Virus record (IMG/VR): IMGVR_UViG_3300031721_000051 | Span: 1 to 20,861 of that record | Origin: a virus | DNA: 20,861 nt | Direction: 5' to 3' (one strand) | In this document: positions 8,576-19,017 of the stretch, piece by piece | How the letters are laid out: the number at the start of each line of letters is the position of its first letter | Numbering within the stretch: position 1 is the stretch's first letter | Position numbers and translations under genes: made by a program | Notes under the pieces: model-generated | The model's input: only the letters and a program-made list of their open reading frames with translations | Database searches by the model: none | Told to the model about the DNA's origin: nothing

Positions 8576-10066
8576 CTAATTCATACGGCTATTCTTCAGC
8601 GGGTTGCCAAAGTAATTAGCTCTCTTCTTACAATATTCCCATAAAGGCTCATGGAATTTAGGTTTAAGGCTGGCTGTTAGAACTTCTTTCAAAGTTACAG
8701 GACCTCTCCTACTATACATGGCATTCATTATTCGTCTCTGGTTATTCTCTGCAAATCTAACTATAGACATACATATAAGCAACCAATTGTATATCTTATC
8801 GAATTCAATTGTTGCACTATGTGGTCTAAACTCAATCGTGTCAGGACCTGAAGCCGCTGAACAATTAGTTAGATTAATCCAAGTATATCTCTGAGAGTTG
8901 TAATGCCCACCAGGGTGAGACCTTTTCTTATTGTATGTCTGACCTATCTTATTACCTATAGTAATCTCTCCTAAGATGTCTCTATAGTTGTGAAAACTAA
9001 GACGGTCTACAGATTCAGGTATTAACTTACAGTAAGTATTACTCTTTCTTGATGATGGAAGTATAGAGTATACATCGTCTTCAATCTGGCTACATAGTTT
9101 AAGAATCATAATAGATAACCTTCTATTGTTAGAAGCTCCTCCTATATGAATATGTACACCACACTTCTTATCAGTTTTAGCACCTTCCTCAGCTAACGCT
9201 GCACAAAGTTTCTGTAACTGTCCAACTCCTTTATCACCTTTAAGAACACCAGTCACATATTCAGGTCCTTCTGTAGAACCATCATATACAGCCTTAACAT
9301 TCAAGCCATAGTTACCTAAGTAACTCTGATTACAGGTTTCTACTTCAACGCCAAAGGTGTATTCATTACCTGATGTCTTATAGAAAGTCGTATCACCTTT
9401 CTGCATGTAAGTGTTGTCGAAATAATTGTTATCTCTATTGTCTTCACAACACTCGCTATCGTCATGTACATAAGAATCACAACAATCTCTTAGATTAACA
9501 CAGCAATTTGCCGCAGTTTGGTAGCATTCATAATACTCCTGTTGGTCTTCCGAATATACATAGTCATTGCTATTATCAACATCTATGTATCCTTGGTCTC
9601 CACAATTCAAATTACCAAACCTACACTTCTCCTCATACTGGAAATAACATTCCTGAGAGTCTCCATCGTCCTCTCCAACCCATACAATTTGGTTATCGTC
9701 ACAATTTAAGCTCTCAATCCTATATTCATGCTCTATAATACAGCAATCTCTCTCTCGTAAGTACTTATAAAAGTTCTTAAAGAACCGTATAAATGGGCTA
9801 GTCGTTCCATTATCAGCCGCTCTCTCTAAACCCATAGAACTTATAGCTCTACCTTCTGTATAGTTAAGATGTATTTCATGCCACAAATTGTAATGACCAC
9901 CCCCTGAGAGGTAGTCATTCAACTTGTTTATTAATTCAGCTTTAGGTTTAGCACAACCTAGAAAGCATTCTTCAGGTACGCTCATCGTGGATGATAGTGA
10001 CCGTGAAGTTATATTAAGAACTGCTAACCTTTCGGTTACGAACTCGTCTAACGGATTGTTTGGCAT
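8576..10066 (-). CDS. Putative amidoligase with Cys-rich acidic insert
   Basis: The C-terminal half of this 496-residue protein matches the putative amidoligase family (glutamine-synthetase-like fold): FGVEVET (238-244), DGS..GPEYVT (262-272), CGVHIHI (302-308), RYTWINLT (393-400) and TIEFRPHSAT (410-419). These Glu, His and Arg positions would bind ATP, metal and the carboxylate. Such enzymes join a carboxyl group to an amine, giving amide- or peptide-like bonds. Residues about 108-207 are strongly acidic and hold 13 Cys with repeated Tyr/Asp/Glu-rich stretches, possibly a metal-binding insert. The N-terminal 50 residues look helical. The stop abuts the RNA structure at 8492-8575, and the start overlaps the 53-residue gene. 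The class II amidotransferase lies one small gene upstream. Confidence 0.85.
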   Translation of the reverse strand: MPNNPLDEFVTERLAVLNITSRSLSSTMSVPEECFLGCAKPKAELINKLNDYLSGGGHYNLWHEIHLNYTEGRAISSMGLERAADNGTTSPFIRFFKNFYKYLRERDCCIIEHEYRIESLNCDDNQIVWVGEDDGDSQECYFQYEEKCRFGNLNCGDQGYIDVDNSNDYVYSEDQQEYYECYQTAANCCVNLRDCCDSYVHDDSECCEDNRDNNYFDNTYMQKGDTTFYKTSGNEYTFGVEVETCNQSYLGNYGLNVKAVYDGSTEGPEYVTGVLKGDKGVGQLQKLCAALAEEGAKTDKKCGVHIHIGGASNNRRLSIMILKLCSQIEDDVYSILPSSRKSNTYCKLIPESVDRLSFHNYRDILGEITIGNKIGQTYNKKRSHPGGHYNSQRYTWINLTNCSAASGPDTIEFRPHSATIEFDKIYNWLLICMSIVRFAENNQRRIMNAMYSRRGPVTLKEVLTASLKPKFHEPLWEYCKKRANYFGNPLKNSRMN

Positions 10067-10209
10067 AATTTCCCAATATTATCAATTATAACTTTCAATT
10101 CTTTAGTGTCAACAGTGACACCCTTACGTTCTTCAAGCTTTTTAGTCGCTTGGTATAATTCTTTAACATACTCAGTATCAGCGCATAGTGTTAATAGTTT
10201 CTCTAACAT
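10048..10209 (-). CDS. Small helical protein, 53 residues
   Basis: This frame has 53 codons plus TAG. It overlaps the amidotransferase 3' end by 7 nt and the amidoligase 5' end by 19 nt, so it fills the space between those two enzymes exactly. The product (MLEKLLTLCADTEYVKELY..., ending IDNIGKLCQTIR) is helical with Lys/Glu-rich heptad-like spacing and two Cys. It may be a small partner of one of the two enzymes, but no family is recognised. Confidence 0.65.
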   Translation of the reverse strand: MLEKLLTLCADTEYVKELYQATKKLEERKGVTVDTKELKVIIDNIGKLCQTIR

Positions 10210-11231
10210 ACCAGTATACTTTTGTTGTTAACAACTTCCACTTCTTTCTCGTTGCTCGTACCTTCGGTTTGAAGCTCTTGCTTAATTAACAGAATGAAAT
10301 TACTTATAGCTAAGTCATCATCTTTCTCTAACCAACCATGATATTTCATCTCGTTGTATGCTAACTCAAACGCATCTAACCCAGACTCTACATGATTGTA
10401 CCAATCGTTGTTAAGCTCTTCAATATAAGACTCAGTCTGCGTTTCAGGTAAATCTTCTTCTGAATTCCAAGTACTCCACCACTTCTCGTCATGAGCTGTG
10501 TTGTCGTAGTAAGAATCGACTTTATCGAACGTACCCTGAGTTATCTTATTATTTTTACCGTATTCATACCAAGGTTTAGTTTCTTTCTCAACAGCAGTTA
10601 CCTTTATTTCAGTAGCTGTATCAAGCGAACCATCTTCGTTATATATGAACAAGAAGTTTGGTACTACTTCTTTAACGTCCTTCTTATTGGAAGCTAAAGC
10701 TGTAAGACCCTCTTTCTTAGACGAGAATATAATACCATCATCTGTTCTTAACTTAAACAGAGGATTGTTACGTTTGTATACATGAAGTTTACCTGTTATC
10801 ATGTCAACCCATAAAGCATTGATAGTTCCATTGTGACTACCTAATGTTTTCACATCGTCAGTCTTCTCAAGGATACTATATATAGCCTTACTATCTACGT
10901 CAGTAACTTCTAAATCATTCTCCTTTAGATTCTCTTTATGATTACCTAATACACCATTGTGTACTCCAGCATATTTACCATAAATATAAGGATGTGAGTT
11001 ATCAGCTGTAATCTCACCATGTGTACTGTACCGTGTATGACCAAGAAAGCTATTTGTTGTTGTATCGTTGATGATACTTAACAGATTACCTGACTCGTCA
11101 AGACATTTATATACATTACCATTGATGATAGCTCCAGAGCTGTGACCACCACGACTATCGTTGTCGTTCATTAGATACATTAATTTATTAATCGGTGTAT
11201 CTTTCCCGATATAAGCTACAATTCCACACAT
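10203..11231 (-). CDS. Class II glutamine amidotransferase (Ntn hydrolase)
   Basis: The product starts MCGIVAYIG, placing the nucleophile Cys at position 2 as in GlmS, PurF and GltB glutaminase domains. GHTRYSTHGE and GVHNGVLGN supply the Arg and Asn-Gly residues that bind glutamine and form the oxyanion hole, and DSKAIYSIL matches the later Asp position. The domain spans about residues 1-205 and would release ammonia from glutamine. The remaining 135 residues are acidic and Trp/Tyr-rich with no recognised synthase domain, so the acceptor enzyme must be separate. The nearby amidoligase is the natural candidate. The gene starts 5 nt after the 79-residue gene and overlaps the 53-residue gene. 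Confidence 0.9.
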   Translation of the reverse strand: MCGIVAYIGKDTPINKLMYLMNDNDSRGGHSSGAIINGNVYKCLDESGNLLSIINDTTTNSFLGHTRYSTHGEITADNSHPYIYGKYAGVHNGVLGNHKENLKENDLEVTDVDSKAIYSILEKTDDVKTLGSHNGTINALWVDMITGKLHVYKRNNPLFKLRTDDGIIFSSKKEGLTALASNKKDVKEVVPNFLFIYNEDGSLDTATEIKVTAVEKETKPWYEYGKNNKITQGTFDKVDSYYDNTAHDEKWWSTWNSEEDLPETQTESYIEELNNDWYNHVESGLDAFELAYNEMKYHGWLEKDDDLAISNFILLIKQELQTEGTSNEKEVEVVNNKSILVC

Positions 11232-12547: not shown

Positions 12548-12569
12548 AATACTCTAATGGGTAGGGAAA

Positions 12570-12578
12570 GAGAGAGTT
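12570..12578 (-). promoter_or_regulatory. Repeated AACTCTCTC element, copy 5
   Basis: Leftward it reads GAAACTCTCTCTTTCCC, matching copy 4 at 13176. It lies just past the stop of the 122-residue gene and upstream of the structured leader and tRNA-like element. The upstream half-element is weak here (GGTATATTT inside the gene end). It is a candidate promoter for the long operon starting at 12290. Confidence 0.35.
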
Positions 12579-12585
12579 TCTATAC

Positions 12586-12954
12586 TCAATTCTTAAATAT
12601 ACCAACGGCTAAGCACCTTTGATAGCACTCCCATAATGATTCATTCCTTTTATAGAACTCTTCTGCAGTCATACCTTTAGGAAAGTGTGTGTCTTTACCC
12701 TTGTTAACAATATCTCTATGTAGACTACCTAAATCACCAGAAGAATAATAAGGCACTTCATTGGTGAAAGTAGTCGCATCAAATACTTGCGGGTAATCTA
12801 CATCGTTAGGATATTCTTCATCTTCGCTTGTATCTACAAACACACCTAAATCATATTTATGACCCTTAGAGTCTATAAACGGACCTAAGTATGTCGAATA
12901 CTTAATTTGCTCCCACGCATCAGGGTGGAACAACTTTACATTTACTTGTATCAT
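12586..12954 (-). CDS. Hypothetical acidic protein, 122 residues
   Basis: The family is not recognised. The product begins with strand-like MIQVNVKLFHPDAWEQIKYS, has a very acidic centre (VDTSEDEEYPNDVDYPQVFD) and ends in a helical part with GMTAEEFYKRNESLWECYQRCLAVGIF. It has two Cys and no membrane segment. It is flanked by non-coding regulatory sequence on both sides, unlike the overlapping genes further left, so it is probably expressed as its own unit. Repeated element copy 4 lies about 220 nt upstream of its ATG. An A-rich leader (TTAACTAAAAGACGAAGAC) precedes the start. Confidence 0.6.
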   Translation of the reverse strand: MIQVNVKLFHPDAWEQIKYSTYLGPFIDSKGHKYDLGVFVDTSEDEEYPNDVDYPQVFDATTFTNEVPYYSSGDLGSLHRDIVNKGKDTHFPKGMTAEEFYKRNESLWECYQRCLAVGIFKN

Positions 12955-13056
12955 GTCTTCGTCTTTTAGTTAATGTTAAACTATGTTAATACTGTGACAA
13001 CTTGTGTCAAACACTTAAATATAAATAGGATATACCCATTGTCGGGCATACTTCAC

Positions 13057-13087
13057 TTGTTTGTTAAATATATAATCGCTACCTTTG
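13057..13087 (+). promoter_or_regulatory. Bacteroidota-type promoter match, rightward
   Basis: TTG (13057-13059), 20 nt, then TACCTTTG (13080-13087) matches the Bacteroidota consensus TTG-N19-21-TAnnTTTG. No rightward gene follows for over 2 kb, so a transcript from it would be a small or antisense RNA against the leftward transcripts. A chance match in AT-rich sequence is possible. Confidence 0.35.
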
Positions 13088-13175
13088 GTGGGTAGGTGGT
13101 TAAATACTTAATGCAGATGCACTGAACACTTAAATAGAACACATAGTCTATAGTGTTAAAGTGATTGCAGTGAAA

Positions 13176-13211
13176 GAGAGAGTTTCCAAGACTCTAAAGA
13201 CACTGTATATC
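13176..13211 (-). promoter_or_regulatory. Repeated bipartite element, copy 4
   Basis: Leftward: GATATACA (13211-13204), 19 nt, then AACTCTCTC (13184-13176). It has the same two blocks as the copies at 14294, 14715 and 15184, without the AGTGATAGTGA box. It lies ahead of the leftward gene 12586-12954. Confidence 0.45.
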
Positions 13212-13379
13212 AGGCACTTGAAAGCCTAAAACGCAAGAGTGTTACTCCATATCTACTACATATTCCCCTCAAATACGTTATATAGGTGGTTCTGGAACAT
13301 GTCCACACAAACATACACACAAACAAACCGAGTGTACTACTGTGTATGTACTCTGGGGTGATAGTGAGAGCATAATAAG

Positions 13380-13413
13380 AAAAAAGCGAAGACATACCGT
13401 AGTACATCTCCGC
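13380..13413 (-). terminator. Intrinsic terminator of gene 13426-14250
   Basis: GCGGAGATGTAC (13413-13402) pairs with GTATGTCTTCGC (13397-13386) over 12 bp (three G-U pairs) around a TACG tetraloop, followed leftward by six T. It begins 12 nt after the gene's stop. This is a classical Rho-independent terminator for the leftward transcript. Confidence 0.85.
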
Positions 13414-13425
13414 AATCTAATTAGC

Positions 13426-14250
13426 CTAACCGAAGTTAAGACCGTAATCTGCTGTGCCTGCTGAATCAACAGGTGCTTTCTCCGTTGTGGACTTAGCATC
13501 ATCAGATTTCTCAACGCCTGAACAAGACATAAGAGCGCCTCTTGCTGACATCTTAGCTCTAATGTTCGCACCTTTTAGTGCAAGCAAGTCGTAGTTAAGC
13601 TCAGTCTGGAACACGTCAAGCATGTCGCAGTCTTCAAGGATGTGGAATAGCTTCGTAATTATCTTACTTGGCTTGTTATCCTTCCCTGTCAATCGCTCTA
13701 CAGTCCAACCTGCTCCTTCAAGAGTAGCAAATAGCTGGTGGTACTGAGGCATCACCTGCAGACCTTTCTTAGCCAACTGTGTTGCACGGTACTTAGCAAA
13801 CTCTACTTGACATTGTGCAATCGAGCGTAGTCCGTAAACCACGCGTTCTTCGGTGAATAAGAAGGCCTCTGTAGCCGTTCTGTAGTCAAGAAGTTCCAAT
13901 GTCAAACACAAGTTCATACCATCCTTACTACCTGCATTGGTAGCAACAACACTAATCAGTCGCATGTTATGTTCCACTCCATCATAGCCTGCACGTTTAC
14001 TGACATCAGTAATCTTTAGACCCGATAGCTCGGACATATACAACGGCATAGCAGGTGTTTCCACAACGGGAATAGCCTCTACTACAGCTGTAGCTTGGGG
14101 TTGAGCGTCAGTATTTAGCTCTGACGTAGCTGTTGGAGCACCAAACACAAAGTTTGACGCATTCTTAAAGATGCTGTTTTCAGCCATATCCATAAGGGTT
14201 GTGCAAGTTTCCGACAGAGGCATAGCCTCCCTTGCGATTAATTTAAGCAT
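13426..14250 (-). CDS. Hypothetical protein, 274 residues
   Basis: The family is not recognised. The N-terminal 70 residues are Ala/Thr/Pro-rich and probably flexible. A compact part follows from about residue 85 (SGLKITDVSKRAGYDGVEHN, then LCLTLELLDYRTATEAFLF, strand-like), then helices with LRSIAQCQVEFAKYRATQLAKKG. A Ser/Thr/Lys-rich tail ends ADYGLNFG. The frame is open to 14292, but ATG 14250 is preferred: the sequence before it (ACTATCCGAGGTACG) matches that before the next gene (ACTATCCGAATC), and the earlier Met overlaps the repeated promoter-like element. A Met at 14187 (MAENS) is also possible. It ends at a strong terminator and is likely a single-gene unit. Base composition is richer in G+C than most of the window. 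Confidence 0.65.
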   Translation of the reverse strand: MLKLIAREAMPLSETCTTLMDMAENSIFKNASNFVFGAPTATSELNTDAQPQATAVVEAIPVVETPAMPLYMSELSGLKITDVSKRAGYDGVEHNMRLISVVATNAGSKDGMNLCLTLELLDYRTATEAFLFTEERVVYGLRSIAQCQVEFAKYRATQLAKKGLQVMPQYHQLFATLEGAGWTVERLTGKDNKPSKIITKLFHILEDCDMLDVFQTELNYDLLALKGANIRAKMSARGALMSCSGVEKSDDAKSTTEKAPVDSAGTADYGLNFG

Positions 14251-14293
14251 CGTACCTCGGATAGTACAATGTAATAGTAATGTTGTAGACAAT

Positions 14294-14363
14294 GAGAGAG
14301 TTATTTCCTGTATGGGATATGTATATGTATATGGTCACTATCACTAGGAGGCTCTCGCCCCCT
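14294..14363 (-). promoter_or_regulatory. Repeated module, copy 3: hairpin, AGTGATAGTGA box, bipartite element
   Basis: Leftward order: hairpin AGGGGGC-GAGA-GCCTCCT (14363-14346), TAGTGATAGTGA (14346-14335), CATATACA (14333-14326), 23 nt, AACTCTCTC (14302-14294), then ATTGTCTACAAC. It lies between the stop of 14369-14656 and the start of 13426-14250. It likely combines termination of one unit with initiation of the next. Confidence 0.6.
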
Positions 14364-14368
14364 AATAA

Positions 14369-14656
14369 CTAAAACCTATCTCCTGGTCTAGGAGCAGTCC
14401 ACTGTAATTCCTTGGTCAGCTTGGTAGCTGCGAAGTTCAGTACCATCACTCCTTGGCGTGGACTGTTGTACCACACACAACCACAGCTTGGGACTTTACT
14501 CCCTTTAGCTCTGCAGGTTGTCTGATACTGCATTATCCTCTTCAGTAAGTCAGAGCGTTGCTCTCTTACTTTGTCGGAGAACTTCCAACCTTTAGATACG
14601 TGGCTGTTCTTTGTAGTCCCTGGGTAATTCCATGTTATGTTTATAGTCATACGCAT
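14369..14656 (-). CDS. Hypothetical basic protein, 95 residues
   Basis: The family is not recognised. The product is basic and Trp/Tyr-containing: TINITWNYPGTTKNSHVSKGWKFSDKV, then a Lys/Arg-rich helix (REQRSDLLKRIMQYQTTCRAKGSK), a Cys pair (SCGCVWYN) and a strand-like end. The start may be Met1 or Met3. It is bounded on both sides by copies of the repeated regulatory module and so forms its own unit. Its G+C is near 50% over a sampled 60 nt (14401-14460), against 38% in 7201-7260, which suggests a different origin from the replication operon. Confidence 0.6.
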   Translation of the reverse strand: MRMTINITWNYPGTTKNSHVSKGWKFSDKVREQRSDLLKRIMQYQTTCRAKGSKVPSCGCVWYNSPRQGVMVLNFAATKLTKELQWTAPRPGDRF

Positions 14657-14714
14657 GATTCGGATAGTTTAATGTCCTTTAGTTAGAACCGATAGGACAA
14701 TTGTTGTAGTTAAT

Positions 14715-14783
14715 GAGAGAGTTCTTTTATATCCTGCAGTAGCTGTGTATATCGTCACTATCACTAGAGGGCGTGAGCCCCCT
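14715..14783 (-). promoter_or_regulatory. Repeated module, copy 2: hairpin, AGTGATAGTGA box, bipartite element
   Basis: Leftward order: hairpin AGGGGGC-TCAC-GCCCTCT (14783-14766), TAGTGATAGTGA (14766-14755), GATATACA (14753-14746), 22 nt, AACTCTCTC (14723-14715), then ATTAACTACAAC. It precedes the gene 14369-14656 and follows the gene 14792-15121. The stem differs from copy 3 in sequence but keeps its pairing. Confidence 0.6.
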
Positions 14784-14791
14784 GTGTGATA

Positions 14792-15121
14792 CTAGAATGG
14801 TAAGTCATCGTTAATCATTTGGTAGAGAGTCTCAATCTCCACCTCTCTAGCGATGATGTTGTCGCCAAGCTGCTTCTGCTTCTGTTGAAGCTCAGCAATC
14901 TGACGAGAGACACGAGCGTGTCTAATCACATCTTGTACGTCATTGTACAATTGGATTGTCATCACCGCAGTGATGGTTGTGAACCCTTTGTGGTTGCTAG
15001 ACTCAAGTCTAAAGCAATCATTGTTGTTCAATGCAGAAGCCACACGTACTGTGAAGTCTGCAGTCTTGATGCGCAATACAATCTTGCACAATCCTAAGTC
15101 CAGGTTTTGAAATCCGTACAT
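14792..15121 (-). CDS. Hypothetical protein with an SSB-like C-terminal tip, 109 residues
   Basis: The family is not recognised. The N-terminal 65 residues alternate strand-like segments (CKIVLRIKTADFTVRVASAL, then TTITAVMTIQLY). A helical, heptad-like part follows (RQIAELQQKQKQLGDNIIAREVEIETLYQM), and the protein ends INDDLPF. That end is the acidic Pro-Phe tip of bacterial SSBs (DDIPF or DDLPF), also seen in this phage's own SSB (VDDMPF). The domain before it does not look like an OB-fold SSB of normal length. The protein may dock on SSB-binding enzymes of the host or phage. It lies alone between two copies of the repeated module. The tip could be coincidental. Confidence 0.65.
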   Translation of the reverse strand: MYGFQNLDLGLCKIVLRIKTADFTVRVASALNNNDCFRLESSNHKGFTTITAVMTIQLYNDVQDVIRHARVSRQIAELQQKQKQLGDNIIAREVEIETLYQMINDDLPF

Positions 15122-15183
15122 AATCGGTCAGCCATAACACCCATAGGTGCGTGGACGCTGATTCCCACTAGTTGTAGGCAAGT

Positions 15184-15257
15184 AGAGAGTTGTTTTCTCC
15201 GCCCGTCATTTTATGTGCATATCATCACTATCACTAAGCAAGGTCTCCCCTGCTCAG
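15184..15257 (-). promoter_or_regulatory. Repeated module, copy 1: hairpin, AGTGATAGTGA box, bipartite element
   Basis: Leftward order: hairpin CTGAGCAGG/CCTTGCTTAG (15257-15249 with 15243-15234), TAGTGATAGTGA (15236-15225), GATATGCA (15223-15216), 24 nt, AACTCTCT (15191-15184), then ACTTGCCTACAAC. It precedes the gene 14792-15121. The stem sequence is unrelated to copies 2 and 3, but the position is the same. Confidence 0.6.
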
Positions 15258-15264
15258 CAATTCA

Positions 15265-15606
15265 TTACTCATTCATTCTGTTCTTGAACTCCTTCATCCC
15301 TCTCTTCACTGACTCTTTAGACAAGGCACTGTGAGGTAGCTGTCCTTCAGCTGACCAGTCTTCTGGGTACAATGCACAGTGGTCAAGGTAAGCTGACTCC
15401 TTCTTGAGGAAGTACATCAGTTCATCTTGTGGAATGTCCTCCACTGCTAATGACCCACCATCGTAGACTAACGTGCCATCGATGTCAATCCATCCATTTC
15501 TTAACTTAATGTTAAGCTTGTTTGCACTGCTGTCAATCAACAAATACAATGCATACACAGCACACACTGCAAGTATTCCGAACATAACTATTGTAGGCGT
15601 ATTCAT
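15265..15606 (-). CDS. Single-pass membrane protein, 113 residues
   Basis: The product has a hydrophobic N-terminal segment (residues about 5-24, IVMFGILAVCAVYALYLLI) and then a soluble, acidic part (WIDIDGTLVYDGGSLAVEDIPQDELMYFL) with a Lys/Arg-rich end, fitting an N-terminal membrane anchor. The frame is open to 15621, and Met at 15621, 15612 or 15606 could start it. The last is chosen because GATTATG also precedes the next gene's ATG. It is the first leftward gene after the divergence point, so it is probably expressed early. A membrane-anchored early protein might act in superinfection exclusion or host takeover; the sequence gives no direct evidence. Confidence 0.65.
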   Translation of the reverse strand: MNTPTIVMFGILAVCAVYALYLLIDSSANKLNIKLRNGWIDIDGTLVYDGGSLAVEDIPQDELMYFLKKESAYLDHCALYPEDWSAEGQLPHSALSKESVKRGMKEFKNRMNE

Positions 15607-15657
15607 AATCATTGCCGACACTAAGGTAGTGGCATCTCCATTTAGTTGAAGGCAATT

Positions 15658-15665
15658 AGAGTGTT
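15658..15665 (-). promoter_or_regulatory. Repeated element, copy 0 (diverged)
   Basis: Leftward AACACTCT (15665-15658) followed by AATTGCCTTCAACTA aligns with copy 1 (AACTCTCTACTTGCCTACAACTA). The upstream GATATACA block is not seen; instead there is a C-rich tract. It lies ahead of the membrane protein gene. Confidence 0.4.
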
Positions 15666-15676
15666 TCTCAAGTTAA

Positions 15677-15718
15677 GGGGGGGCTTCAAAAGTTTCTTAG
15701 TGGTAGGGGGCTTTTAAC
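15677..15718. repeat. G-tract repeats in the divergent intergenic region
   Basis: AGGGGGGGCTT (15676-15686) and AGGGGGCTT (15705-15713) repeat in direct orientation, with GTTAA before the first and TTAAC after the second as an inverted pair. They sit between the divergent leftward and rightward units, where operator sites are expected. Confidence 0.35.
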
Positions 15719-15759
15719 ATATAACGTCCACACCCACAAAAACATAAAAAATTTTTAGT

Positions 15760-15767
15760 TATCTTTG
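15760..15767 (+). promoter_or_regulatory. Bacteroidota -7 element for the rightward unit
   Basis: TATCTTTG fits TAnnTTTG and lies 26 nt before the ATG at 15794. No TTG is present 19-21 nt upstream, where an A-rich stretch stands instead. The leader (AATAATTTAAAAAAAATTC) is A-rich as in Bacteroidota. Confidence 0.6.
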
Positions 15768-16695: not shown

Positions 16696-17228
16696 TGTAT
16701 TTAGTTAATCTAGATAAGACTGGCAAGGTCATAATGGACGACAGCGTAAATGCTGTAGAAGAGTTCAGAGAAGTAATATCAACGAAAGGTTTAGGGATGA
16801 AGGGAATGTTGTATGTATCGCTATTCTGCGACTACGACAGTATATACCGTCATTTTACAGACACTGAACGAGCTCGTATGATAGGTAGTGTTATCTTTAA
16901 CAACTACGACTGGAAGGGTTCAAAAAATCCGAAAATCGCTAACGCGATACTGATGTATAAGAAATTACAGTTTGACCCTCTTGACGCTCAGCTTCTCGCT
17001 TTCAATGAGAAGATAAACGAGTACACGGACCTAATGAAGAAGGTTACGATAGAGGAAGACAATGCGTTGGACTGGCAGAAGATAATGATTGGTATAGATA
17101 AGATACTATCTACAAGACAGAAGTTGTTGGATGCTATCGAGCGTAGAGGTGCTCGTACTAAGATTTCAGGGGATGGTGAGTTAAACTATCTAGAAAAGAA
17201 ACAATCAGTATTAGATAAGAATGGGTAA
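16695..17228 (+). CDS. Hypothetical protein upstream of TerL, 177 residues
   Basis: I do not recognise a family. The product is helical, with a mixed first half (MYLVNLDKTGKVIMDDSVNAV, then LYVSLFCDYDSIYRHFTDTERARMI) and a Lys/Glu-rich helical second half (LLAFNEKINEYTDLMKKVTIEEDNALDW) compatible with a coiled coil. It overlaps the TerL start by 8 nt and the previous gene by 1 nt. The terminase small subunit is usually encoded directly before TerL and is often an oligomer-forming helical protein of this size. That makes it the leading guess, but no helix-turn-helix is clear, so it is left unnamed. Confidence 0.7.
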   Translation: MYLVNLDKTGKVIMDDSVNAVEEFREVISTKGLGMKGMLYVSLFCDYDSIYRHFTDTERARMIGSVIFNNYDWKGSKNPKIANAILMYKKLQFDPLDAQLLAFNEKINEYTDLMKKVTIEEDNALDWQKIMIGIDKILSTRQKLLDAIERRGARTKISGDGELNYLEKKQSVLDKNG

Positions 17229-19017
17229 CATTAAGAAATACGCTCCTATTATACATCAGGGTATTCCTGATTTCAATCCAGAAAGCGTTTCATATAGAGA
17301 ATTTTGGGATGAGCAAATAGAGAGATGCAAGCACGGGTATAAGCCTCCAGGGATGGATTTCATTACTGGTAAACATTATTATTATCTAAACTTCTATAAA
17401 ATTTTAGGTAATTCTGGTGAGAAGGGTGGTCGTAAATCTCTTATCGCTCCTTGGTATAGAGACATGGATAAGGAATACTTTGACTTGTTCGATACGTGCA
17501 AGGAAGAAGAGAAAGGAATGATTGTTATTAAGGCTAGGGATAAAGGGTTCTCTTATATGAATTCTGGTATCCTAGCTCAGGAGTATACATTTTACCCACA
17601 CAATGAAGTAGGTATTGCAGCTGGTTTACAAGTTACAGCCGATTCATTTTTCCAAAAAGTTAAGAAAGGTTTATATAATCAAGAGAATATCTTTAGGCAT
17701 TCTATTTTAAAAGATGCTGATGAGGTAGTTCGTTCTGGTTATAAAAGAAAAAATATCGAAGGTAAGTGGGAGATTGGTGGTTTCCAGTCTGTTATACATT
17801 GCCGTACAATGAGTAATCCTGAAGTATTTAAAGGAGAGCGTTTATCTGTTATGGTATTTGAGGAAGCTGGGGAATTTAAAGAGTTACTTAACGCTTATAT
17901 GTCATCGAAAGCATGCTTCATGGATGGGAACGAACAATTTGGTGTTCCTATTATTGGTGGTACGGGTGGTGATATAGAAACCTCTTCTAAGGATTTCATG
18001 GATATGTATTATAATGCTGATGCGTTTAATCTTATCCCTATGTTTATTCCTGCTACAAAATGTTACCATGGGTTCTTTGATACTAAGACTGGAATCTCTC
18101 AGGAAGCAGAAGCAAAGGAAAAGCTTATGGCAGAGAGAGACCAACTGAAGAAGTCAGACAATCAAAAGGGTTTCAATCTTCATATACAAAACTATCCACT
18201 AACCGTAGAGGAGGCATTCTTACAGACTAAGTCTTCTATGTTTAACGTAGCTAAGATTAACGACCAAAGGAGCGCTATACTTTCCAGTAATACGCTAACT
18301 AATCAAGTACAAAAAGGTTACTTAGAATGGGAGGGTGAAGAAATGAGTGTTAGATGGATACCAGATGGTGCTGGACCTTATAGAATACTTGCTCACCCAA
18401 AGACAGAATACAAAGGCTTAGACATTGGAGGTATTGATTCTTATGACCAAGACCAGGCATCTACAGATTCTTTAGGTTCTGCTGTTATATATAGGAGATT
18501 TTACAGTACTGAGATGGCTAGTAACTACGTTGTAGCCGAGTACACAGAAAGACCAAGGACAGCAGAGGAGTTTTGGGATGGGTGTCTTAAACTGGCTGTT
18601 TACTATAACTCAGAAATGTTAATAGAATTTACCAAAATAGGTATTATTGACTACTTCAAGAGAATGGGAGGTTTAAAGTTCTTAAAAGAAAGACCTACGG
18701 CAGCTCACTCTCCAAAGACTGTAAATAGAAATAGGTACGGTATCCAAATGAACAAGCATACTAAGGCTGTGATGGAGCAATACCTACAGAAATACGTAGA
18801 AGAAAACTGTGACGACATATATTTCATTGACTTATTAGACGAATTAGCGAACTATAGAGTACGAAATACGGATAGGGTTATTGCGTTTGGACTGTGTCTT
18901 ATACATGACATTGACATTTACGAAAAAAGTGTTAAATTTGGGGAGTCAGAACAAAAAAACTTAGGATTCGTATACTACCGTAGAGAAAATGGTAGGCTAG
19001 TACCGTATAAAGAATAA
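17221..19017 (+). CDS. terL: Terminase large subunit
   Basis: The 598-residue product has the two parts of a packaging motor. The ATPase has a Walker A-like KARDKGFS (104-111), with Arg in the position usual for phage terminases, and Walker B VMVFEEAG (210-217), where paired Glu follows the hydrophobic strand. The nuclease part begins near GLDIGGIDSYDQD (Asp401, Asp406), the RNase H-like first Asp motif, with later acidic residues near the LLDELANY segment. TerL cuts concatemers and drives DNA into the prohead through the portal. The start overlaps the upstream gene by 8 nt, and the portal gene follows after 7 nt. A relationship to crAss-like TerL is possible but not shown here. Confidence 0.95.
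   Translation: MGNIKKYAPIIHQGIPDFNPESVSYREFWDEQIERCKHGYKPPGMDFITGKHYYYLNFYKILGNSGEKGGRKSLIAPWYRDMDKEYFDLFDTCKEEEKGMIVIKARDKGFSYMNSGILAQEYTFYPHNEVGIAAGLQVTADSFFQKVKKGLYNQENIFRHSILKDADEVVRSGYKRKNIEGKWEIGGFQSVIHCRTMSNPEVFKGERLSVMVFEEAGEFKELLNAYMSSKACFMDGNEQFGVPIIGGTGGDIETSSKDFMDMYYNADAFNLIPMFIPATKCYHGFFDTKTGISQEAEAKEKLMAERDQLKKSDNQKGFNLHIQNYPLTVEEAFLQTKSSMFNVAKINDQRSAILSSNTLTNQVQKGYLEWEGEEMSVRWIPDGAGPYRILAHPKTEYKGLDIGGIDSYDQDQASTDSLGSAVIYRRFYSTEMASNYVVAEYTERPRTAEEFWDGCLKLAVYYNSEMLIEFTKIGIIDYFKRMGGLKFLKERPTAAHSPKTVNRNRYGIQMNKHTKAVMEQYLQKYVEENCDDIYFIDLLDELANYRVRNTDRVIAFGLCLIHDIDIYEKSVKFGESEQKNLGFVYYRRENGRLVPYKE

Follow-up and report, generated by a model that had tools for sequence, protein, structure and literature searches.

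Six copies of a pyrimidine-rich element of about 24 nt, AACTCTCTC-ATTGCCTACAACTA, all on the minus strand (Table 1), precede leftward early genes or leaders in the window (the whole stretch of 20,861 nt analysed here, which is an entire viral contig), and from their sequence and distribution they may be interpreted, with a probability of about 0.6, as early promoters, or as the core recognition part of such promoters, whose reader would be a phage factor that co-evolves with them, most likely the virion RNA polymerase. An earlier note on this DNA had proposed a bipartite candidate promoter or activator site, specific to the phage and recognised by a phage factor or a modified host polymerase. 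The bipartite design does not stand, as described below; the phage-factor reading fits the repeated core, found at six sites above background and conserved in the core only, its placement ahead of early units, the lack of a host promoter there, the concerted replacement of the element between related phages, the presence of a gene for a crAss-type RNA polymerase, and the division of transcription reported for crAss-like phages (PMC10136315).

The window virus is a marine crAss-like phage. Each of its proteins that was tested has a 100% identical counterpart in a 67.8-kb IMG/VR contig (G001), which also encodes the crAss muzzle protein by which membership of Crassvirales was judged (PF25731, E 2.6e-120). 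The assignment follows from this protein, from matches of the window's large terminase (TerL) to crAss-like and other Bacteroidota phages at ~28-30% identity, and from a ~4,000-aa protein with a 6VR4-like core. The leftward early genes, below 15.6 kb, include those for a DnaB helicase, a Sak4-like protein, an exonuclease, an amidoligase and a glutamine amidotransferase, and the rightward arm, with its onset at ~15.8 kb, encodes TerL (17221-19017), portal, major head protein and muzzle protein. Rfam and ARAGORN gave no matches on the window, and searches for relatives of two small early proteins recovered the same phage only. The amidoligase gene (8576-10066) and the class-II glutamine amidotransferase gene (10203-11231) are adjacent on the minus strand; the early arm of phage phi14:2 features adjoining gamma-glutamyl cyclotransferase, ATP-grasp and aminotransferase genes.

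Exact AACTCTCTC is found on the minus strand at 12578-12570, 13184-13176, 14302-14294 and 14723-14715, and nowhere on the plus strand, with diverged versions AACTCTCTA at 15191 and AACACTCTA at ~15665. This agrees with the earlier note, except that copy E, listed there as a diverged "CTCTCTC-only" form, in fact carries the full exact sequence. Also borne out were the continuation of four copies (A, B, C and F) into TTGCCTACAACTA-like sequence and the position of each copy upstream of a leftward ORF or long leader, which holds for all six, every one of them outside ORFs. Conservation of copies D and E is limited to the first half. A matrix was built from the gap-free 26-nt alignment of the six copies, as the earlier note had suggested, and every site was scored with itself left out. 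The left-out copies reached 15.8-22.7 bits, as against 13.4 bits for the best non-site in the window and the other pieces of G001, and in composition-matched random sequence only 0-4 positions per 2 million attained such scores. The element is thus a conserved sequence upstream of units and enriched over the genome, as looked for in a phage-polymerase promoter. The core is 77% identical among the window copies while the 26 nt on each side are 24-27% identical (77-84% within a genome and 24-36% for flanks when relatives are included), which points to selection on the core and away from gene conversion over a longer repeat unit. A scan of the viral collection with TAGTGATAGTGANNATAT returned 95 stretches, nearly all with a single match; more than one was found only in this phage (3) and in that of contig L006 (2).

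Table 1. Features of the early arm and divergent region, in window coordinates (DR, divergent region; hairpin block, hairpin + TAGTGATAGTGA + NNATAT).
Feature	Position	Strand	Support or remarks
Copy F (AAACACTCTAATTGCCTTCAACTAAA), leading the leftward arm	15641..15666	-	matrix, random-sequence control, placement
Copy C (CAACTCTCTACTTGCCTACAACTAGT)	15167..15192	-	matrix, random-sequence control, placement
Copy A (GAACTCTCTCATTAACTACAACAATT)	14699..14724	-	matrix, random-sequence control, placement
Copy B (TAACTCTCTCATTGTCTACAACATTA)	14278..14303	-	matrix, random-sequence control, placement
Copy D (AAACTCTCTCTTTCACTGCAATCACT), precedes long non-coding leader	13160..13185	-	matrix, random-sequence control; 3' half weaker
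Copy E (AAACTCTCTCTTTCCCTACCCATTAG), precedes leader	12554..12579	-	matrix, random-sequence control, placement; 3' half weaker
Hairpin block, after stop of 15265-15621	15212..15261	-	
Hairpin block, after stop of 14792-15121	14742..14789	-	
Hairpin block, after stop of 14369-14656	14322..14367	-	
Host-type -7 box (TAnnTTTG), TATCTTTG, of divergent rightward (late) arm	15760..15767	+	conserved offset in relatives
DR, candidate late-activator site	15667-15760		clade-conserved
Non-coding island ACCACYTACCCACCAAAGKTAC...TTTGACATTGTCAAGT...TATTTAAGTGTTT	~13099-13000	-	between copies D and E; also in relatives
tRNA-like stretch	~12376-12308	-	just ahead of small conserved gene

The first half of the proposed bipartite element, GATATACA or a close variant, had been placed before four copies. 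An exact match is present only at 14753 and 13211; position 14333 has CATATACA instead and 15223 has GATATGCA, and copies E and F lack the sequence. A separate block, made up of a hairpin followed by TAGTGATAGTGA and NNATAT, lies behind the stop codons of three early genes, with GATATACA as its tail; two pairs of the hairpin are changed on both sides. Two such blocks each are present in the related contigs L008 and L006, and the gap between block and element varies from ~15 to ~50 nt among relatives (up to ~50 nt in L006). Copies E and F have no hairpin block, and at copy D GATATACA has neither a preceding hairpin nor a counterpart in L006. The variable spacing and the membership of GATATACA in a post-stop hairpin block indicate two separate modules, and a single bipartite unit was accordingly rejected. 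We infer that the unit before each block probably ends there, in a 3'-end or terminator structure. By itself GATATACA is a weak signal, with 46 one-mismatch matches in the window against 29 expected (none of 100 shuffles reached 46), many of them intragenic; nine occurrences are on the leftward strand and one on the opposite strand.

The most telling pattern emerged from comparison with close relatives. Absence of the element upstream of orthologous genes had been named in advance as a result that would speak against a promoter, and AACTCTCTC is indeed missing at the corresponding places of L006, whose TerL is 91% identical to that of the window; yet a different repeated sequence, the GAGTCTTTT-based GAGTCTTTTnTYTTnTnCAA, is present there in five copies upstream of the corresponding genes and leaders. 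Left out in turn, these copies score 19.8-25.2 bits versus 15.1 for the next best place, and there is no cross-recognition, the window and L006 matrices each being blind to the other's sites. In L008 (TerL 90% identical), AACTCTCTCrTTGACAGCAACTAA is found in three copies. Relatives were also searched for pyrimidine-tract repeats in non-coding left arms, with purine tracts as a control, and then rescanned. Thirteen further relatives each have a pyrimidine-tract core of their own, which recurs 2-7 times upstream of leftward early genes, while the purine-tract control gave zero or at most 2-3: seven copies of a TTCTTCTCTTTATTAATTAA-like core in L036, five and four of a CTATCGYCTCYTYCTTTTATTACTTA-like core in L045 and L048, three of GCTTCGCCTTGTTCTCTCTTTTGATT in L046, five in L050, four each in L025, L028, L043 and L055, at least four in L080, and, less certain, three in L011, three in L067 and two in L020. 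The sites lie on the leftward strand throughout, 64 of the 66 being outside called ORFs, and the copy preceding a conserved CCACCAAAG island is 74-98 nt from it in six contigs despite the differing sequence of the copy itself. Since these sites were picked by a repeat search, their matrix scores are not independent tests, unlike their strand, positions and confinement to the early arm. Such a pattern, in which a different but equally repeated version occupies the same kind of places, would be expected if the reader of the promoter belongs to the phage's own transcription machinery and co-evolves with it.

A candidate for such machinery is encoded by the phage. The ~4,000-aa ORF contains a GSDxDGD motif and is matched in 14 of 17 relatives' contigs. 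Comparison of the giant protein with the PDB by phmmer gave no match, and a two-sequence profile against phi14:2 gp66 was not significant. A core profile of 14 rows matches the P23-45 virion polymerase gp96 (8h2n, E 2.7e-4), and the core model (mean pLDDT 79.5) is matched by Foldseek to phi14:2 gp66 (6VR4, E 3.8e-21, TMq 0.66). By profile and predicted structure, then, the protein is a giant two-barrel RNA polymerase of the crAss type, with a putative location in the virion. Its core is 48-61% identical among the compared genomes, versus 90-91% for TerL. Across three genomes, element identities of 71, 52 and 46% rank in the same order as polymerase identities of 60.7, 51.9 and 48.4%, the closest element pair being the window and the L008 type (polymerase 60.7%); here contig G023 was taken as the remainder of the L008 phage, as inferred from origin in the same metagenome and a spacing of ~250 nt on the G001 map. 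The three-genome ranking fits co-evolution specific to the polymerase, but this is not claimed, as the major head protein ranks the closest pair identically and the effect is not separable from shared ancestry.

The main competing explanation, which we regard as rather unlikely, has the element serving as an operator or promoter part for a phage-encoded activator, sigma-like factor or repressor acting with host RNA polymerase, while the virion polymerase would read a different signal. Concerted change requires a trans-acting partner, whose identity it leaves unspecified, and TCACTATCA sites upstream in many relatives represent another element acting at the DNA or RNA level. Against this, and as the earlier note had stated for the window, none of the six copies matches the Bacteroidota promoter TTG-N19-21-TAnnTTTG; with the spacing widened to N17-23, the promoter is likewise missing from all 66 sites, which come from 16 genomes, and TAnnTTTG alone occurs near only three. 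Moreover, transcription of the first early units has to precede the synthesis of any phage protein, a task that falls to the virion polymerase in crAss-like phages, the host polymerase transcribing the late genes (PMC10136315). The host-type box is found on the late arm, at an offset of 104-107 in 12 of the 13 contigs where the divergent region was located, and this contrast with the early sites fits the published early/late split. The divergent region, upstream of the TAnnTTTG box of the rightward arm, features C (or G) runs, a centre resembling CAAAAGTTTTG, and GTGTGGACGTTATATG, and is a candidate late-activator site.

Alternatively, the element could function in the RNA of early leaders, for instance by enhancing translation, directing processing or binding a protein, with promoters elsewhere. 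Four window copies, and most of those in L008, L028 and L036, lie 9-45 nt before a start codon, and hairpins follow some copies by inspection. However, the distance to any start codon is 100-400 nt for copies D and E and for many copies in relatives, and since copy F leads the arm, the leftward start must be within ~100 nt of it, so that a purely RNA-level role appears improbable. Iteron-like replication, packaging or recombination sites, suggested by the clustering of copies ~1.2-6.9 kb from terL and by the strongly conserved non-coding island between copies D and E, are very hard to reconcile with a single constant orientation and one gene-spaced copy ahead of each unit, with no close tandem arrays.

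If the promoter reading is correct, each copy would drive a leftward transcript covering a small early gene or a leader, with the start at or just behind the element, and the pyrimidine-tract core would be recognised by a phage-specific factor and not by unmodified host polymerase. The most likely reader would be the giant virion RNA polymerase that is brought into the cell along with the DNA. Sites and factor would diverge in step, giving each phage lineage its own consensus, and in this lineage the separate hairpin block between units would probably end the preceding transcript.

Promoters of T7-type and N4-type phages are likewise near-identical within a genome and diverge with the cognate polymerase, and N4 injects its polymerase for early genes. 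Those polymerases belong to a class unrelated to that of the window phage, whose element occurs in few copies, in the early arm only, and has no consistent hairpin, unlike N4: by inspection no small promoter hairpin of N4 type was found, a short GAG/CTC-type arm being present in some window copies but absent from others, from L008 and from L006. A further parallel comes from phages with a two-barrel virion RNA polymerase, whose early units are preceded by copies of a short conserved motif; related phages are reported to share it only if they carry the enzyme (PMC10770324). The window phage is alike in its repeated early-unit motif and in a polymerase related by profile; the likeness is one of description. 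Those motifs are AT-rich or GC-rich and mapped by ONT-cappable-seq, whereas the window element is a pyrimidine tract, predicted from sequence, that differs between close relatives. With phi14:2 the window phage shares the polymerase fold (6VR4), divergent early and late arms, and, by inspection, a TATCTTTG box on the late side. Unlike in the window phage, a comparable repeat was searched for and not found in cultured phi14:2, nor in crAss001, and no promoter motif for gp66 or for other crAss-type polymerases was found in the literature searched.

It is possible, though at somewhat less than even odds, that crAss-type virion RNA polymerases read a promoter class which is as yet undescribed and to which the element belongs, with pyrimidine-tract promoters restricted to the early arm and polymerase-promoter pairs specific to each lineage across a large marine crAss-like clade. 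The word "undescribed" is provisional, the main phi14:2 polymerase paper having been outside the literature search. What is new here is a lineage-specific, repeated early-arm element replaced in concert between close relatives. The crAss-like phages rank with the most abundant phages known, and their virion polymerase, for which a structure is available, is related to RNA-interference polymerases. More than 12 lineages, each with several copies per genome, provide ready templates, with a sister lineage's version as built-in control, for asking whether and how such a polymerase recognises DNA sequence.

Other conserved features were noted in the early arm. TCACTATCA occurs at 13367 (-) and, inverted (TGATAGTGA on the minus strand), at 14346, 14766 and 15236, the inverted copy forming the 3' side of the hairpin block in the window lineage. 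It is present in many relatives, with 63 leftward-strand versus 10 opposite copies in 862 kb of their loci, and often follows a terminator hairpin with a T-run and precedes ATGCRCGGTAGT-like repeats; it is possibly a regulator site or a transcript-end element. The island ACCACYTACCCACCAAAGKTAC...TATTTAAGTGTTT, also present in L006, L020, L025, L043, L045, L046, L054 and others, is a candidate origin, operator or regulatory RNA. The tRNA-like stretch, AGAAGAG ... GGTGGTTCGATTCCACC ... CTCTTCT, is called as no tRNA by ARAGORN and folds no better than shuffled sequence; equivalents with AAGCAGG...CCTGCTT ends are found in relatives, the stretch being located at ~4190-4100 in L006 and ~5155-5070 in L011.
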